A DNA stretch of 64,000 bases. Origin: Sphingomonas sp. Y38-1Y. GTDB taxonomy: Bacteria > Pseudomonadota > Alphaproteobacteria > Sphingomonadales > Sphingomonadaceae. The translations under genes were made by a program, and so were the position numbers. The stretch is taken from assembly GCF_032391395.1 (NCBI RefSeq), contig NZ_CP135916.1, forward strand, positions 1,550,001-1,614,000. The letters run 5' to 3'. Shown here in pieces: positions 22,403 to 28,311 of the stretch; position 1 is the first letter of the stretch, and the number at the start of each line of letters is the position of its first letter. A model generated the notes under the pieces. The model saw nothing but the letters and a program-made list of their open reading frames with translations. It was not told the DNA's origin and did not search any database.

Positions 22403-22443
22403 GGCCATGTGCTCCCGCGAAGGCTGGAGCGCTTCTCTTCCTT

Positions 22444-22527
22444 CGTCATCCCGGACTTGATCCGGGATCCCGCTTTTTCTCTGACCGTCGAGAGGCAGCG
22501 GGACCCCGGATCAAGTCCGGGGTGACG
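22444..22527. repeat. Palindromic repeat unit (CGTCATCCCGGACTTGATCCGGG type)
   Basis: CGTCATCCCGGACTTGATCC... at 22444 is mirrored by ...GGATCAAGTCCGGGGTGACG ending at 22527, giving an 84-base imperfect palindrome that could form a long hairpin. It fills the space between two convergent genes (trxB and the M28 peptidase), where it could end transcription from both. A second copy is at 36501-36586. Confidence 0.85.
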
Positions 22528-22531
22528 AGAT

Positions 22532-23839
22532 TTAGCGAGCGGGCGCCGCCCTGCCAGCAAACGTCACGATGCTCTCCGCACCACCCGCCAGTGCCGAGAC
22601 GCCGAAGAAGTTGTCGTCGACGATTACCCCCTTCGCCGTGAACGCCGTCGCGTCTGCGCCGACATCGGCATGGTCGGTCCAGTCCTGGCCATCGTTGCGG
22701 CGCCAGTGGATGCGATACCCCGTCGCGCCCGGCACCGCCGCCCATTTCAGCACCGAATCGACCCCCAGCGCGCCATCGACGCTCACCCCCGTCGGGGCAG
22801 AGGGCGCGTCGGCCAGCCGGCGCAGCACCGCGACGTTGATCGCCGTCACCTTGGCAGCATAGTCGAAGTCCATCTTGTCGATGGTGTCGCCATAGATGCG
22901 GCCATTCTCGGTGCGCAGGTTCTGGTGCTGCTGGTCGTAATTCTCGACCCCCACGGTGAAGCGGACCGCCGGGTAGCCGAGGCGCAGGAACGCCTCATGG
23001 TCGCCGCCGCGGCCGAAGCGGTCGGGGCGGCGGACCGCAAACACGTCGAGTGCGCCGGGCATCCCCTTGGCGACCGCGTCGATCGCCTTGGCGAGCGCGC
23101 GGCTGGGGCCGTCGTCCTCGCCGCCGTCGCCGCGCCGCTTCTTGGCCTCCTCGATCGTCTCGACCTGGCGGATGCCTTCGGAAAAGACGCGGACGCGGTC
23201 GGTGACGCGGCGGCCGTCCTGGCCGACGGTGTTGCCGACGATGTCGTTGTTGAGCACCGCATCGACCGTCCAGCCGCGCGCCTTCGCGGTCTCGGCAAGC
23301 AGGGTCGCGCCCCACAGGCCCTGCTCCTCACCCGACAGCGCGGCATAGATGATCGTCGCGCGATGCTTGCTCTTCGAAAGGATGCGCGCCGCCTCGATCG
23401 CGAGCGCCACGCCCGAGGCGTCGTCGTTCGCGCCCGGCGCCTCGCCGCTGGCGTCCATCACGTCGGAGTTGCGGCTGTCGAGATGGCCCATGACGATGAC
23501 GACGCGCCCGGGCTCAGTGCCTTTCTGAATGCCGAGCACGTCGACGATCTCGACCCCGTTCGGCGCGCGCGGGCCGGTGAAGCTGCGCGCCAGCCGCTCG
23601 GTGGTGATGCACCCGCCGCACGCCTTGCCGATCGCCTTGAACTCGGCCTCCACCCAGTTGCGCGCGGCGCCGATGCCGCGCTTGGGGTCGGTGGTCGTGG
23701 AAGCCGAATGGCGCGTGCCGAAGCTCACCATCTTGGCGACGTCGGCGCGCATCCGCTGCGGCGACGGCGCCTCCTGCGCGGCGGCGGGGACGGCCGCGAT
23801 CAGGACGGGCACGGCGAAGATCAGGGGTGTGTGGCGCAT
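22532..23839 (-). CDS. Secreted M28 aminopeptidase-like zinc peptidase
   Basis: A 435-residue exported metallopeptidase. Signal peptide MRHTPLIFAVPVLIAAVPAAAQ. The metal ligands are seen in GHLDSRNS, GANDDASG, SGEEQGLWG, NNDIVGN and YDQQHQN, the order expected of M28. The last ~90 residues (APTGVSVDG...WAAVPGATGYRIHWRR) look like a fibronectin III domain, perhaps for substrate or surface binding. ATG 23839 was chosen because the signal peptide begins there. The repeat just downstream may serve as its terminator. Confidence 0.92.
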   Translation of the reverse strand: MRHTPLIFAVPVLIAAVPAAAQEAPSPQRMRADVAKMVSFGTRHSASTTTDPKRGIGAARNWVEAEFKAIGKACGGCITTERLARSFTGPRAPNGVEIVDVLGIQKGTEPGRVVIVMGHLDSRNSDVMDASGEAPGANDDASGVALAIEAARILSKSKHRATIIYAALSGEEQGLWGATLLAETAKARGWTVDAVLNNDIVGNTVGQDGRRVTDRVRVFSEGIRQVETIEEAKKRRGDGGEDDGPSRALAKAIDAVAKGMPGALDVFAVRRPDRFGRGGDHEAFLRLGYPAVRFTVGVENYDQQHQNLRTENGRIYGDTIDKMDFDYAAKVTAINVAVLRRLADAPSAPTGVSVDGALGVDSVLKWAAVPGATGYRIHWRRNDGQDWTDHADVGADATAFTAKGVIVDDNFFGVSALAGGAESIVTFAGRAAPAR

Positions 23840-25827: not shown

Positions 25828-26031
25828 ATGCCGATCCTGCGCGTCCTGATCGAGGTCCTGCACGTCGTCGCCGGGGTGCTGGCGGCGCTGCTGATCGGGG
25901 GCGCCGCGGCCTGGGCCTATCCGGTGGGCAAGGCCAATATCTGGCTCGTCACCTATGTCTCGATCGGGGTCGTCGTGCTGCTCGGCATCCGGCCGGTGCT
26001 GCGCGCGGCAAGGGGAAATGCGCATGAGTGA
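25828..26031 (+). CDS. Small two-helix membrane protein
   Basis: A 67-residue protein with two hydrophobic stretches: VLIEVLHVVAGVLAALLIGG and LVTYVSIGVVVLLGI. GAGGTGAGGGGG lies close upstream, a good ribosome-binding region. The last 8 bases overlap the start of the thioesterase gene. No family recognised; its place in the PDH operon is conserved or accidental, which cannot be told from one genome. Confidence 0.65.
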   Translation: MPILRVLIEVLHVVAGVLAALLIGGAAAWAYPVGKANIWLVTYVSIGVVVLLGIRPVLRAARGNAHE

Positions 26032-26407
26032 GCTACCGCCCGACAAGGCGCCGGCGCTGCGCGTCACGACGATGCCCGCCGACGCCAATGCCTATGGCGA
26101 CATCTTCGGCGGCTGGCTGATGAGCCAGATGGACATGGCCGCGGGCCTGGTCGCCGCGCGCTTCTCCAAGGGGCGGGCGGTCACCGTCGCGATGGACGGC
26201 ATGCAGTTCCACGCCCCCGTCGCGGTCGGCGACGAGGTGTCGGTGTTCTGCGACATCGTGAAAGTCGGTCGCACGTCGATGACCATCGCCGTCGAAGCCT
26301 GGCGCCGCGACCGCCACCAGGAGGAACAGTGCCGCGTCACCCAGGCGCGGTTCGTGTTCGTCGCGGTGGATGAGGCAAAGCGGCCGCGGGTGATCGGTGA
26401 GGGGTGA
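26024..26407 (+). CDS. Acyl-CoA thioesterase (hotdog fold, YciA-like)
   Basis: A 127-residue thioesterase. The run TTMPADANAYGDIFGGWLMS closely follows E. coli YciA, including the catalytic Asp in GDIFGG; VTVAMDGMQFHAPVAVGDEV and VFVAVDEAKRPR complete the fold. It hydrolyses short and medium acyl-CoAs. ATG 26024 (MSELPP) was chosen over an ATG two codons earlier because AAGGGG is 8 bases upstream. It overlaps the small membrane-protein gene by 8 bases. Confidence 0.92.
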   Translation: MSELPPDKAPALRVTTMPADANAYGDIFGGWLMSQMDMAAGLVAARFSKGRAVTVAMDGMQFHAPVAVGDEVSVFCDIVKVGRTSMTIAVEAWRRDRHQEEQCRVTQARFVFVAVDEAKRPRVIGEG

Positions 26408-26408
26408 A

Positions 26409-26900
26409 ATGCCTTCTTCCCCCTCTCCCCTTGAGGGAGAGGGAGGGGCCCGCCCGGCGCAGCCGGGTGGGAGGGTGAGGGGGCGTGGTTACGATGCGTC
26501 GACCCTCGCGCACGCAAAGCGCCTCCGCCGCGACATGACCGACGCCGAGCGCCGCTTCTGGTCGATCCTTCGCGGTGCACAGATCACCGGGGCCAAGTTC
26601 CGTCGCCAGCAGCCGATCGGCCCCTATATCGTCGACTTCGTCTGCCAGTCGCACCGCCTGGTCGTCGAAGTCGATGGCGGCCAGCACAGCGCCGGAGCCG
26701 ATGCGGACCGCACCGCCTGGCTGAACGCCGCAGGTTACCGCGTCATCCGCTTCTGGAACAACGAAATCACCAGCAATCTCGATGGCGTGGCGGCGGAGAT
26801 CGCGCGTGTCCTCGCCACCCCTCACCCTCCCACCGCTGCGCGGCGGGCCCCTCCCTCTCCCTCAAGGGGAGAGGGGTTTGATGGAGCACTAAATGGCTGA
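26409..26900 (+). CDS. DUF559 endonuclease-like protein inside an inverted-repeat unit
   Basis: A protein of up to 163 residues with a DUF559 core (~40-135), a family with a very-short-patch-repair-like nuclease fold. Conserved residues: MTDAERRFWSILR, FRRQQPIGPYIVDFV (Asp), VVEVDGGQH (Glu and Asp) and YRVIRFWNNEI. Its first and last ~25 residues ([35 protein letters not shown]) are translated from ~60-base inverted repeats, so they are not domain sequence. Start uncertain: ATG 26409 (AGGGG 5 bases before) or GTG 26475. Its stop overlaps the E3 start by 8 bases. It looks inserted in the PDH operon. Confidence 0.82.
   Translation: MPSSPSPLEGEGGARPAQPGGRVRGRGYDASTLAHAKRLRRDMTDAERRFWSILRGAQITGAKFRRQQPIGPYIVDFVCQSHRLVVEVDGGQHSAGADADRTAWLNAAGYRVIRFWNNEITSNLDGVAAEIARVLATPHPPTAARRAPPSPSRGEGFDGALNG
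26420..26482. repeat. Left inverted repeat flanking DUF559 gene
   Basis: About 60 bases made of two small hairpins: CCCTCTCCC/GGGAGAGGG (loop CTTGA) and CCCGGC/GCCGGG (loop GCA), followed by TGGGAGGGTGAG. The right copy at 26815-26876 is its reverse complement: the first 35 bases match exactly, one 3-base gap and a few changes follow. Confidence 0.9.
26815..26876. repeat. Right inverted repeat flanking DUF559 gene
   Basis: Reverse complement of the repeat at 26420-26482, starting CTCACCCTCCCACC and ending with GGGGAGAGGGG. Together the two copies bracket the DUF559 gene as a ~457-base unit, with the E3 start codon 17 bases beyond. Confidence 0.9.
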
Positions 26901-28311
26901 CACCTACGACCTCATCGTGCTCGGTTCGGGGCCTGGCGGCTATGTCGCGGCGATCCGCGCGGCGCAGCTGGGGCTCAAGACCGCGATCGTCGAGCGTGAG
27001 AATCTGGGCGGGATCTGCCTCAACTGGGGCTGCATCCCGACCAAGGCGCTGCTGCGCTCGGCCGAGATCTTTCACTATATGCAGCATGCCAAGAATTACG
27101 GCTTGGCTGCCGAGAAGATCAGCGCCGACCTGGACGCCGTGGTCAAGCGGTCGCGCGGCGTCGCCAAGCAGCTCAATCAGGGCGTCACGCACCTGATGAA
27201 GAAGAACAAGATCGCCGTGCACATGGGCGAGGGCAAGCTGACCGGGAAGGGCAAGCTTTCCGTAACCGACAAGGACGGCAAGGCGACCGAGCTCAGCGCG
27301 AAGCACATCATCCTGGCGACCGGTGCGCGGGCCCGCGACCTGCCCGGCACGCCCGCCGACGGCAAGCGGATCTGGACCTATCGCCACGCGATGACGCCGG
27401 CGGAGATGCCGACCAAGCTGCTCGTCATCGGATCGGGCGCGATCGGGATCGAGTTCGCGAGCTTCTATAACGACATGGGTGCCGAAACGACGGTCGTCGA
27501 GATGATGGATCGCATCGTCCCCGTCGAGGATGCGGACGTCTCGACCTTCCTTGAAAAGTCGCTGACCAAGCAGGGCATGCGCATCCTCACCAAGGCGGGC
27601 GTCAGCGACATCAAGGTCGGCGAGGGCGGCGTGTCGGTCAAGCTGAAGGACAAGGCCGGCAAGGAGACCTCGGAGACGTTCAGCCACGTCATCACCGCGA
27701 TCGGCATCGTCCCCAACACCGAGAATTTGGGGCTCGAGGCGCTGAAGGTCGAGGTCAATGATCGCGGCTTCCTCGTCACCGACCCGATGTGCCGCACCAA
27801 TGTCGACGGCCTCTGGGCGATCGGTGACATCACCGCGCCGCCGTGGCTGGCGCACAAGGCGAGCCACGAGGGCGTGATCGCGGCGGAGTCGATCGCGCAG
27901 GCGCTCGGCAACAAGGATGTGCATCCGCATGCGATGGACGTGCGGAACATCCCCGGCTGCACCTATTGCCACCCGCAAGTGGCGTCGGTCGGCTTGACCG
28001 AGGCGAAGGCCAAAGAGGCCGGCTACTCGGTGAAGGTCGGCAACTTCCCCTTCATCGGCAACGGAAAGGCGATCGCGCTGGGTGAGGCGGAAGGCTTCAT
28101 CAAGACGGTGTTCGACGCCAAGACCGGCGAGCTCTTGGGCGCGCACATGGTCGGCGCCGAAGTGACCGAGCTGATCCAGGGCTATACCGTCGGCAAGCAG
28201 CTCGAGACGACCGAGGTCGAGCTGATGCAGACCGTCTTCCCGCACCCCACGCTGTCCGAGATGATGCACGAGAGCGTGCTGAGCGCGTACGGCAAGGCTT
28301 TGCATATCTGA
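26893..28311 (+). CDS. lpdA: Dihydrolipoyl dehydrogenase (E3)
   Basis: A 472-residue flavoprotein that reoxidises lipoamide of 2-oxoacid dehydrogenases. FAD site GSGPGGYVAAIRA (11-23); redox cysteines 42 and 47 in GGICLNWGC; NAD site GSGAIGIEFASFY; FAD contact GLWAIGDIT; and the C-terminal active-site pair in HPTLSEMMHE. Standard length. Being downstream of pdhC and yciA it likely serves pyruvate dehydrogenase. Its ATG lies inside the end of the DUF559 frame, so translation may now be coupled to that gene. Confidence 0.96.
   Translation: MADTYDLIVLGSGPGGYVAAIRAAQLGLKTAIVERENLGGICLNWGCIPTKALLRSAEIFHYMQHAKNYGLAAEKISADLDAVVKRSRGVAKQLNQGVTHLMKKNKIAVHMGEGKLTGKGKLSVTDKDGKATELSAKHIILATGARARDLPGTPADGKRIWTYRHAMTPAEMPTKLLVIGSGAIGIEFASFYNDMGAETTVVEMMDRIVPVEDADVSTFLEKSLTKQGMRILTKAGVSDIKVGEGGVSVKLKDKAGKETSETFSHVITAIGIVPNTENLGLEALKVEVNDRGFLVTDPMCRTNVDGLWAIGDITAPPWLAHKASHEGVIAAESIAQALGNKDVHPHAMDVRNIPGCTYCHPQVASVGLTEAKAKEAGYSVKVGNFPFIGNGKAIALGEAEGFIKTVFDAKTGELLGAHMVGAEVTELIQGYTVGKQLETTEVELMQTVFPHPTLSEMMHESVLSAYGKALHI

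Follow-up and report, generated by a model that had tools for sequence, protein, structure and literature searches.

A DUF559 gene between inverted arms at the yciA/lpdA junction

The feature under study is a unit of 457 bp (positions 26420-26876 of the window, by which we mean the whole 64-kb stretch of DNA that was analysed), in which a DUF559 gene lies between inverted two-hairpin arms. It is wedged between two genes that, like its own, are read from the forward strand: a yciA-type acyl-CoA thioesterase gene on the left (26024..26407; named from the earlier note and from its position) and, to the right of the insertion junction, lpdA, encoding dihydrolipoamide dehydrogenase (26893..28311). 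The DUF559 open reading frame (Pfam DUF559, E = 1.6e-40) occupies 26397..26900 of the forward strand: it begins inside the end of yciA, with a GTG at 26397 and the likelier start, an ATG, at 26409, and it stops 8 nt inside lpdA. The nuclease domain, for which a Vsr-like PD-(D/E)XK fold is predicted, is encoded by 26505..26813 of the same strand.

The left arm (26420..26482, forward strand) comprises a hairpin, CCCTCTCCC-loop-GGGAGAGGG, then a second hairpin, and finally a purine strand, GGGAGGGTGAGGGG; it represents the long-loop form of a pyrimidine-purine-purine intrastrand triplex motif (TM), with the third strand facing the gene. The right arm (26818..26876, reverse strand) is an inverted copy of the left. 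Without gaps, the arms pair over 52 nt (26420-26471 and 26825-26876; 85% complementary); with gaps, stretches of 63 and 59 nt align as inverted copies at 93.7% identity (E = 1.5e-20), and the first 35 bases are identical in both. The earlier note on this DNA had described a DUF559 gene enclosed by inverted repeats of about 60 bases, identical over their first 35, at the yciA/lpdA junction, its frame overlapping lpdA by 8 bases, and our alignments and coordinates agree with this description. It had also held that the two ends of the protein are translated from the repeats; indeed, provided that the start prediction holds, both the N- and the C-terminal residues of the predicted protein would be arm-coded.

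The arms are not a plain chance repeat: their outer 23-mer (allowing up to three mismatches) occurs only twice in the window, and 100 shuffles of the window yield none. The fold of each arm consists of two hairpins with the purine strand after them (z = -3.5 and -2.3), and the third strand is placed 23-31 nt past the first hairpin, the distance varying with the stem register. The two arms are the sole triplex-like sites that the motif detector found in the 64-kb window, and it found no short-loop motif there. Because five 2-mer shuffles of the window gave 1, 1, 0, 0 and 0 sites of the loose (long-loop) form, a single such site could in itself arise by chance, which does not hold for the inverted pair that the two arms make.

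The predicted enzyme

DUF559 is a common bacterial family of which, to our knowledge, little is known. The window protein matches its profile, PF04480, with 137.8 bits against a cut-off of 20.6, over profile positions 4-108 of 109; the only other Pfam match, to MTES_1575, is sub-threshold. Across 164 distinct DUF559 domains, Glu15, Gln35, the E55-x-D57-G58 motif and Arg82 (domain numbering) are invariant, and Asp44, His61 and Trp19 show at most three exceptions. No tyrosine is invariant among these 164 domains, the best placed, Y41, being Tyr in 133 and Phe in 23.

An AlphaFold2 model of the residues encoded from 26481 onwards has a mean pLDDT of 78.7, the tail that is coded by the right arm lying mostly below 50. 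Foldseek matched this model, in order, to PDB entries 3HRL (NGO0050), 3R3P and 1VSR. For 3R3P, the catalytic domain of I-Bth0305I, a homing endonuclease of the EDxHD family, E is 3.9e-5 and the TM-score by target 0.75-0.76; for 1VSR, which is E. coli Vsr, the corresponding values are 7.5e-3 and 0.42. Judging from the model, the window protein has the nuclease fold of a known homing family with the conserved acidic site intact, which bears out the Vsr-like nuclease fold that had earlier been attributed to DUF559. The resemblance to both enzymes is one of modelled fold. Unlike the gene of a homing endonuclease such as I-Bth0305I, the DUF559 gene is free-standing and intergenic, between its own palindromes, with no intron or intein; unlike that of Vsr, it has yciA and lpdA as its neighbours here, and no methyltransferase gene.

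From the one pair of sequences compared in each case, the DUF559 protein appears to evolve faster than lpdA: dN/dS is 0.30 for DUF559 between our genome and S. spermidinifaciens, compared with 0.06 for lpdA between our genome and G027. Two further candidate roles were rejected: an anti-phage defence gene, as PADLOC gives no match up to E = 0.01, and a phage-borne gene, as a match is found in only 3 of 50,697 phage records.

Palindromes bracket DUF559 genes in many genomes

PF04480 finds six DUF559 genes in our own genome, every one of them between inverted repeats, whose matched stretches measure 63, 39, 57, 21, 27 and 30 nt. The arm sequence differs between these loci, and the two arms of one locus agree.

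Our wider survey scored 161 DUF559 loci in four sets (35 + 47 + 72 + 7): our own loci together with the best-scoring loci of the bacterial family; a phylum sample, made up of 27 new loci and 20 taken in score order down to E = 1.5e-29, and omitting own-family places, one contig-edge place and the fragment G178:C42; loci of named species genomes (72 of 80, eight having been dropped as their flanks were too short); and records of a plasmid collection (44 matched, eight were fetched and seven used, one E. coli duplicate being omitted). Positions shifted by 1 kb served as controls (n = 311), and TMs were counted within 300 bp of the gene. A TM is present on at least one side of 155/161 DUF559 loci but of only 13/311 controls (Fisher p about 6e-100; p-values are overstated here, as loci of related genomes are non-independent); for the family, phylum, named and plasmid sets the counts are 34/35, 44/47, 71/72 and 6/7, respectively. 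Both sides carry a TM at 113/161 loci compared with 1/311 controls, whilst 42 loci have one on a single side and six on neither; with the short-loop form alone, the counts become 114/161 and 9/311. Inverted repeats with a score of at least 16 are seen at 118/161 loci and 1/311 controls (34/35, 31/47, 50/72 and 3/7 in the same order of sets). For the named loci, gene bounds from tblastn give 50/72 with inverted repeats (controls 0/137) and cruder bounds 40/75 (controls 1/138); a first survey of the family set, at score 18 and with three short loci omitted, gave 31/32 (controls 0/64).

The same motif is found near just 2 of 29 GIY-YIG genes of the same bacterial family (the 30 best-scoring loci, L289-L318, less one of odd length), and, therefore, it is no general neighbour of small nuclease genes. 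Among the DUF559 genes scored, a TM neighbourhood is the norm, and it is rare at nearby controls and around GIY-YIG genes. The earlier note had proposed that an endonuclease and the palindromes beside it travel as one compact unit, and had asked whether DUF559 genes are generally flanked in this way, naming DUF559 genes elsewhere without the repeats as part of the outcome that would count against it. What we find is the reverse: with 6/6 of our own genes bracketed and a motif beside 155/161 loci compared with 13/311 controls, the proposal is strongly supported, as it also is by the empty sites and by the scattered gene-less doublets, alike in the type of their ends, that are described below.

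The nearest upstream TM lies on the strand of the gene at 115/135 loci, and the nearest downstream TM on the opposite strand at 113/133; the third strand, therefore, mostly faces the gene. Where both motifs are so oriented (n = 107, plasmid records excluded), unit lengths have a median of 470 bp, the middle half falling between 448 and 512 bp; the stop codon falls in or past the right motif in 81 of these 107 units, and the furthest-upstream start falls in or past the left motif in 49.

The distribution of the gene bears on whether the enzyme might serve its host. A DUF559 protein acting in repair, as a Vsr-like nuclease specific for mismatches or structures, would have the palindromes only as regulatory elements or tolerated substrates. 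Its residues are indeed under purifying selection, and the accessible portion of PMC12907096 makes the Caulobacter DUF559 protein VsrA responsible for the SOS (DNA damage) response in cells without the methyltransferase ScmA. DUF559 genes are, however, patchily present, with up to 10 copies per genome, at junctions that differ by species and of which empty versions exist; moreover, a host-serving role leaves the bracketing of 113/161 genes on both sides unexplained, and we consider it very unlikely.

The palindrome and its gene-less doublets

In its short-loop form, CCCTCTCCC-loop-GGGAGAGGG-TT-GGGTGAGGG, the palindrome is the intrastrand triplex motif that was earlier named the BoxC or PIT element, a kinship that had escaped the earlier note. 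Knowledge of these repeats goes back to the 1990s and, as far as the accessible portion of PMC4666352 goes, one G/C-rich kind occurs in >260 genomes and has no known agent of spread; triplex formation in vitro is reported there for the E. coli motif, and the inverted pairs of E. coli always consist of one TTA-loop and one CCG-loop copy. The DUF559 arms share with these repeats the pyrimidine stem, the purine stem and the third purine strand. They differ in two respects: here, the motif goes with a family of nuclease genes, whereas the authors of PMC4666352, in that same portion, saw no mobility gene near the E. coli motifs; and the arms of the window are a longer, two-hairpin version, the second loop measuring 23-31 nt. 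Our search of the literature, mostly of journals open without subscription, found no link between DUF559 and BoxC, PIT or TM repeats in the accessible portions of its sources.

TM doublets that enclose no gene are scattered in five genomes, namely, our own, G139, G185, G239 and G010; of 20 loci fetched, 19 hold two or more motifs. The ends of the doublets are conserved and often combine one CCG/TCG-type with one TT-type loop, several of them thus resembling the TTA and CCG pairs of E. coli (PMC4666352, accessible portion), and their middles are variable. In our own genome the ends are distinct as well as conserved; in G185 the third strands are directed outwards. Such varying middles are not expected from simple cut-and-paste of whole doublets. 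Nor do the data support the doublets as simple deletion products of our own unit L002, several of their left ends bearing another loop.

Elsewhere in our own genome, outside the window, there are non-coding multi-hairpin elements of about 200 bp (L009, L010, L011/L016, L012 and L014); judged by eye, their ends are of the CCCTCTCCCC...GGGAGAGGG type, with several hairpins in between. Perhaps, these L009-L016-type elements form a further MITE-like family with a common outer palindrome.

Occupied and empty junctions

The yciA/lpdA junction was compared at 30 aligned loci, our own and 29 of relatives. A DUF559 unit is present in four of these (our own genome, its closest relative G027, G028 and G015) and a single eroded palindrome in two (L027 and L029); the genes lie 15-43 nt apart in nine, the yciA frame enters lpdA in three, other inserts or wider gaps are seen in six, and six have no yciA match. 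The search for empty sites at the lpdA loci of relatives that had been suggested earlier thus finds junctions without the unit, and finds it present in the closest relative. The DUF559 proteins of our genome and G027, and those of G028 and G015, fall into separate pairs (support 0.93 and 0.95, respectively) within a clade of 16 tips, which points to this one junction having been hit by two insertions, of separate DUF559 lineages. At L019 and L033, the junction holds an insert of 715-732 bp that, by eye, is like a toxin-antitoxin pair.

Empty sites exist, and they are clearest at trpB/trpA. This gene pair was matched in 61/61 genomes of the genus; 30 loci were fetched and 29 compared, L265 being without its left side. 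The unit occupies the junction in our own genome, G021 and G328, and the three proteins form one clade (support 0.90). In G027, the closest relative, and in ten others, the junction is still a compact 14 nt with the stop and start overlapping; two loci have 17 nt and two 26 nt, and seven carry other inserts. At the same point, G024, G343, G034 and G018 have a gene-less doublet: both doublets and gene-bearing units are, therefore, found at trpB/trpA, but with different motif variants. Our own insertion, as read, has kept both the start of trpA and the stop of trpB. No consistent target-site duplication is seen at the trpB/trpA sites compared, and the TCA(T) that is repeated at some of them may reflect no more than the need to preserve both genes. 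Overall, units and doublets sit at junctions that are empty in relatives. In L272, L273, L281, L283, L285 and L287, the trpB/trpA overlap holds palindromic elements that differ by species.

Motif and gene across genomes

Among 150 genomes of the phylum, strict TMs occur in 22 of the 36 with a DUF559 match below 1e-10, a cut-off of our choosing, and in 11 of the 114 others (p = 1.6e-9; the counts were matched by hand between listings); with the search tool's own limit of 1e-3, the corresponding counts are 24/49 and 9/101. Among 119 genomes of the family, they occur in 45 of the 102 that are DUF559-positive (1e-3) and in 2 of the 17 that are negative (p = 0.014), these two having one copy each. 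The reversed control pattern scores 0 in every genome listed. The strict motif is missing in 14 of the 36 DUF559 genomes of the phylum. Conversely, 11 genomes carry TMs but lack a strong DUF559 match, although weak ones are seen in two of them, G202 and G319.

Where neighbouring strict TMs lie 250-600 bp apart, the interval encloses DUF559 in 17 of 18 cases among the matches listed (tallied by hand), with the two motifs inverted in 11 of the 17 and on the same strand in six; in the exception, G113:C1:1116571-1117062, we recognised no nuclease on reading the six frames by eye. G312 has 105 strict motifs and a single DUF559 match, which lies between a pair of them; most of the motifs listed have the stem-loop of that pair. 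We also compared the arms of 23 loci in 11 genomes, ten of them without a short-loop motif, with one to five chosen motif strings per genome: in 16 of 28 cases, a figure that comes without a chance level, the DUF559 arm is closest, or equally close, to motifs dispersed in the same genome, and this does not hold in G185.

These data also bear on the possibility that TMs move or arise by another agent, such as replication slippage or a host enzyme, and that DUF559 is merely cargo caught between two of them. Three TM-rich genomes without any DUF559 match (G230, with 39 copies, G225, with 15, and G195, with 10) speak for such hitch-hiking, and replication effects are discussed by Holder et al. as a source of TM instability, in the accessible portion of PMC4666352. 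Random cargo should vary, however, and the gene-sized intervals hold DUF559 in 17/18 of those among the matches listed; moreover, another family of small nuclease genes from the same bacterial family, GIY-YIG, has the motif in the 2/29 given above. Hitch-hiking of this kind is, in our judgement, unlikely. The data suggest instead a joint spread of DUF559 and the hairpin repeat, which would rank the pair among the most minimal types of mobile DNA.

Five triplex motifs form a tandem array with a period of 147 bp in G230 (C29:102006-102629), a genome without a DUF559 match.

The ycjD gene of E. coli

Both YcjD of E. coli (PRK09767) and NGO0050 of N. gonorrhoeae (PDB code: 3HRL) belong, as the window protein does, to the DUF559 family, and YcjD was earlier assigned to the PD-(D/E)XK superfamily (PMC1189080, accessible portion). 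The window protein differs from YcjD in falling, with 106.2 bits, below the 218-bit cut-off of the YcjD equivalog NF007294. In 3333 of 5426 E. coli genomes, the ycjD region is found between sapF and fabI (80% coverage criterion). We reject a clean empty site for ycjD in the two E. coli genomes without the region that were read: efflux genes occupy its place between sapF and fabI, an arrangement that is also described in the accessible portion of PMC12817139.

We likewise reject E. coli ycjD as a bracketed unit, since neither L191 nor L192 yields a motif with the detector, which requires a pure pyrimidine stem. Inspection by eye shows a degenerate BoxC-like motif immediately downstream of ycjD in the 118UI allele, and another, nearer fabI, in both ycjD alleles; thus, whereas the window gene is bracketed, ycjD is accompanied at most by degenerate repeats of the BoxC type, and these lie downstream. 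The PF04480 search of the E. coli control genome gave no match, though many E. coli ycjD genes are annotated as DUF559; perhaps, this strain is one without ycjD. E. coli K-12 carries the gene (PMC12817139, accessible portion), and the link between DUF559 and the TM makes both testable in that strain.

A nuclease and its palindrome as a probable mobile unit

The RAYT (TnpA-REP) genes with their REPs, many of which carry the conserved tag GTAG, and REPINs (REPtrons) offer the closest comparison in layout: in both systems, a single small gene lies between two inverted palindromes, and gene-less inverted doublets of the palindrome are dispersed in the genome. The two differ in the palindrome, that of DUF559 being a pyrimidine-purine-purine motif, and in the enzyme, a PD-(D/E)XK Vsr-like nuclease by its model as opposed to an HUH/Y1 transposase. 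Inverted flanking palindromes, fast evolution of the gene and a correlation with palindrome abundance are given as marks of RAYTs in the accessible portion of PMC2817692; here too, the gene evolves fast and palindrome abundance correlates with it, with exceptions such as G230. PF01797 (the Y1/HUH transposase) has no match in the whole of our own genome, which excludes a RAYT of this type as the agent of movement; with no such domain in the protein either, a plain RAYT element is ruled out. The comparison with RAYTs made in the earlier note consequently stands for the layout, and falls for the enzyme, which is Vsr-like in a genome where no RAYT was found.

DUF559 might nevertheless transpose in the manner of a RAYT, excising and inserting a single strand bounded by two hairpins, with the doublets as non-autonomous passengers. 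The layout, which fits the marks published for RAYTs (PMC2817692, accessible portion), and the distinct, conserved ends of the doublets in our own genome would both be in order for such a process. We think it distinctly unlikely, given that the modelled fold is PD-(D/E)XK and not HUH, that there is no invariant tyrosine (Y41 is Tyr in 133 and Phe in 23 of the 164 domains) and that no regular target duplication accompanies the insertions.

Our preferred reading, which we hold to be probable, is that the unit is a selfish partnership of nuclease and palindrome, with a RAYT/REP-like layout and an unrelated enzyme. The DUF559 protein would recognise the hairpin or triplex form of its palindrome, probably when replication or repair leaves one strand unpaired, and would nick or cut it; repair of the break could then copy the palindrome-bounded segment, with or without the gene, to new places. 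The action of the endonuclease on its own palindromes, which the earlier note had also suggested, is an inference, as is the way in which the segment is copied. The arms would thereby provide both the cleavage site and the homology, and the gene would spread with its palindromes much as homing endonucleases do with their cut sites and RAYTs with their REPs. As to the route, the pristine trpB/trpA junction of G027 favours whole units jumping into motif-free DNA, whereas three features, namely, the fold, the varying middles of the doublets and the sharing of junctions, speak for homing, in which the gene invades existing doublets. The DUF559-TM pair would stand beside the RAYT-REP system as a second arrangement of this type, with another chemistry.

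Palindromes at GIY-YIG genes

GIY-YIG is a classic homing family. In the sample of 29 loci described above, its genes are bracketed by inverted repeats in 21 cases compared with 0 of 58 controls, and the palindromes belong to several families other than the triplex motif. This parallel suggests a general rule, and the pairing of a nuclease family with a palindrome family may be that rule. We put forward, tentatively and as something of an open bet, a general class of minimal bacterial mobile DNA, in which a homing-type nuclease is joined to a private palindrome family and gene-less doublets are its passengers, DUF559 being paired with BoxC/TM repeats and small GIY-YIG nucleases with other palindromes. 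Were such a class to exist, it would explain much of the dispersed palindromic repeat content that has no transposase.

The window itself contains, at 22440-22535, a gene-less inverted pair of palindromes from another repeat family (GTCATCCCGGACTTGATCCGGG ... CCCGGATCAAGTCCGGGGTGAC); by eye, this pair is like the palindromes that flank GIY-YIG genes in related genomes.
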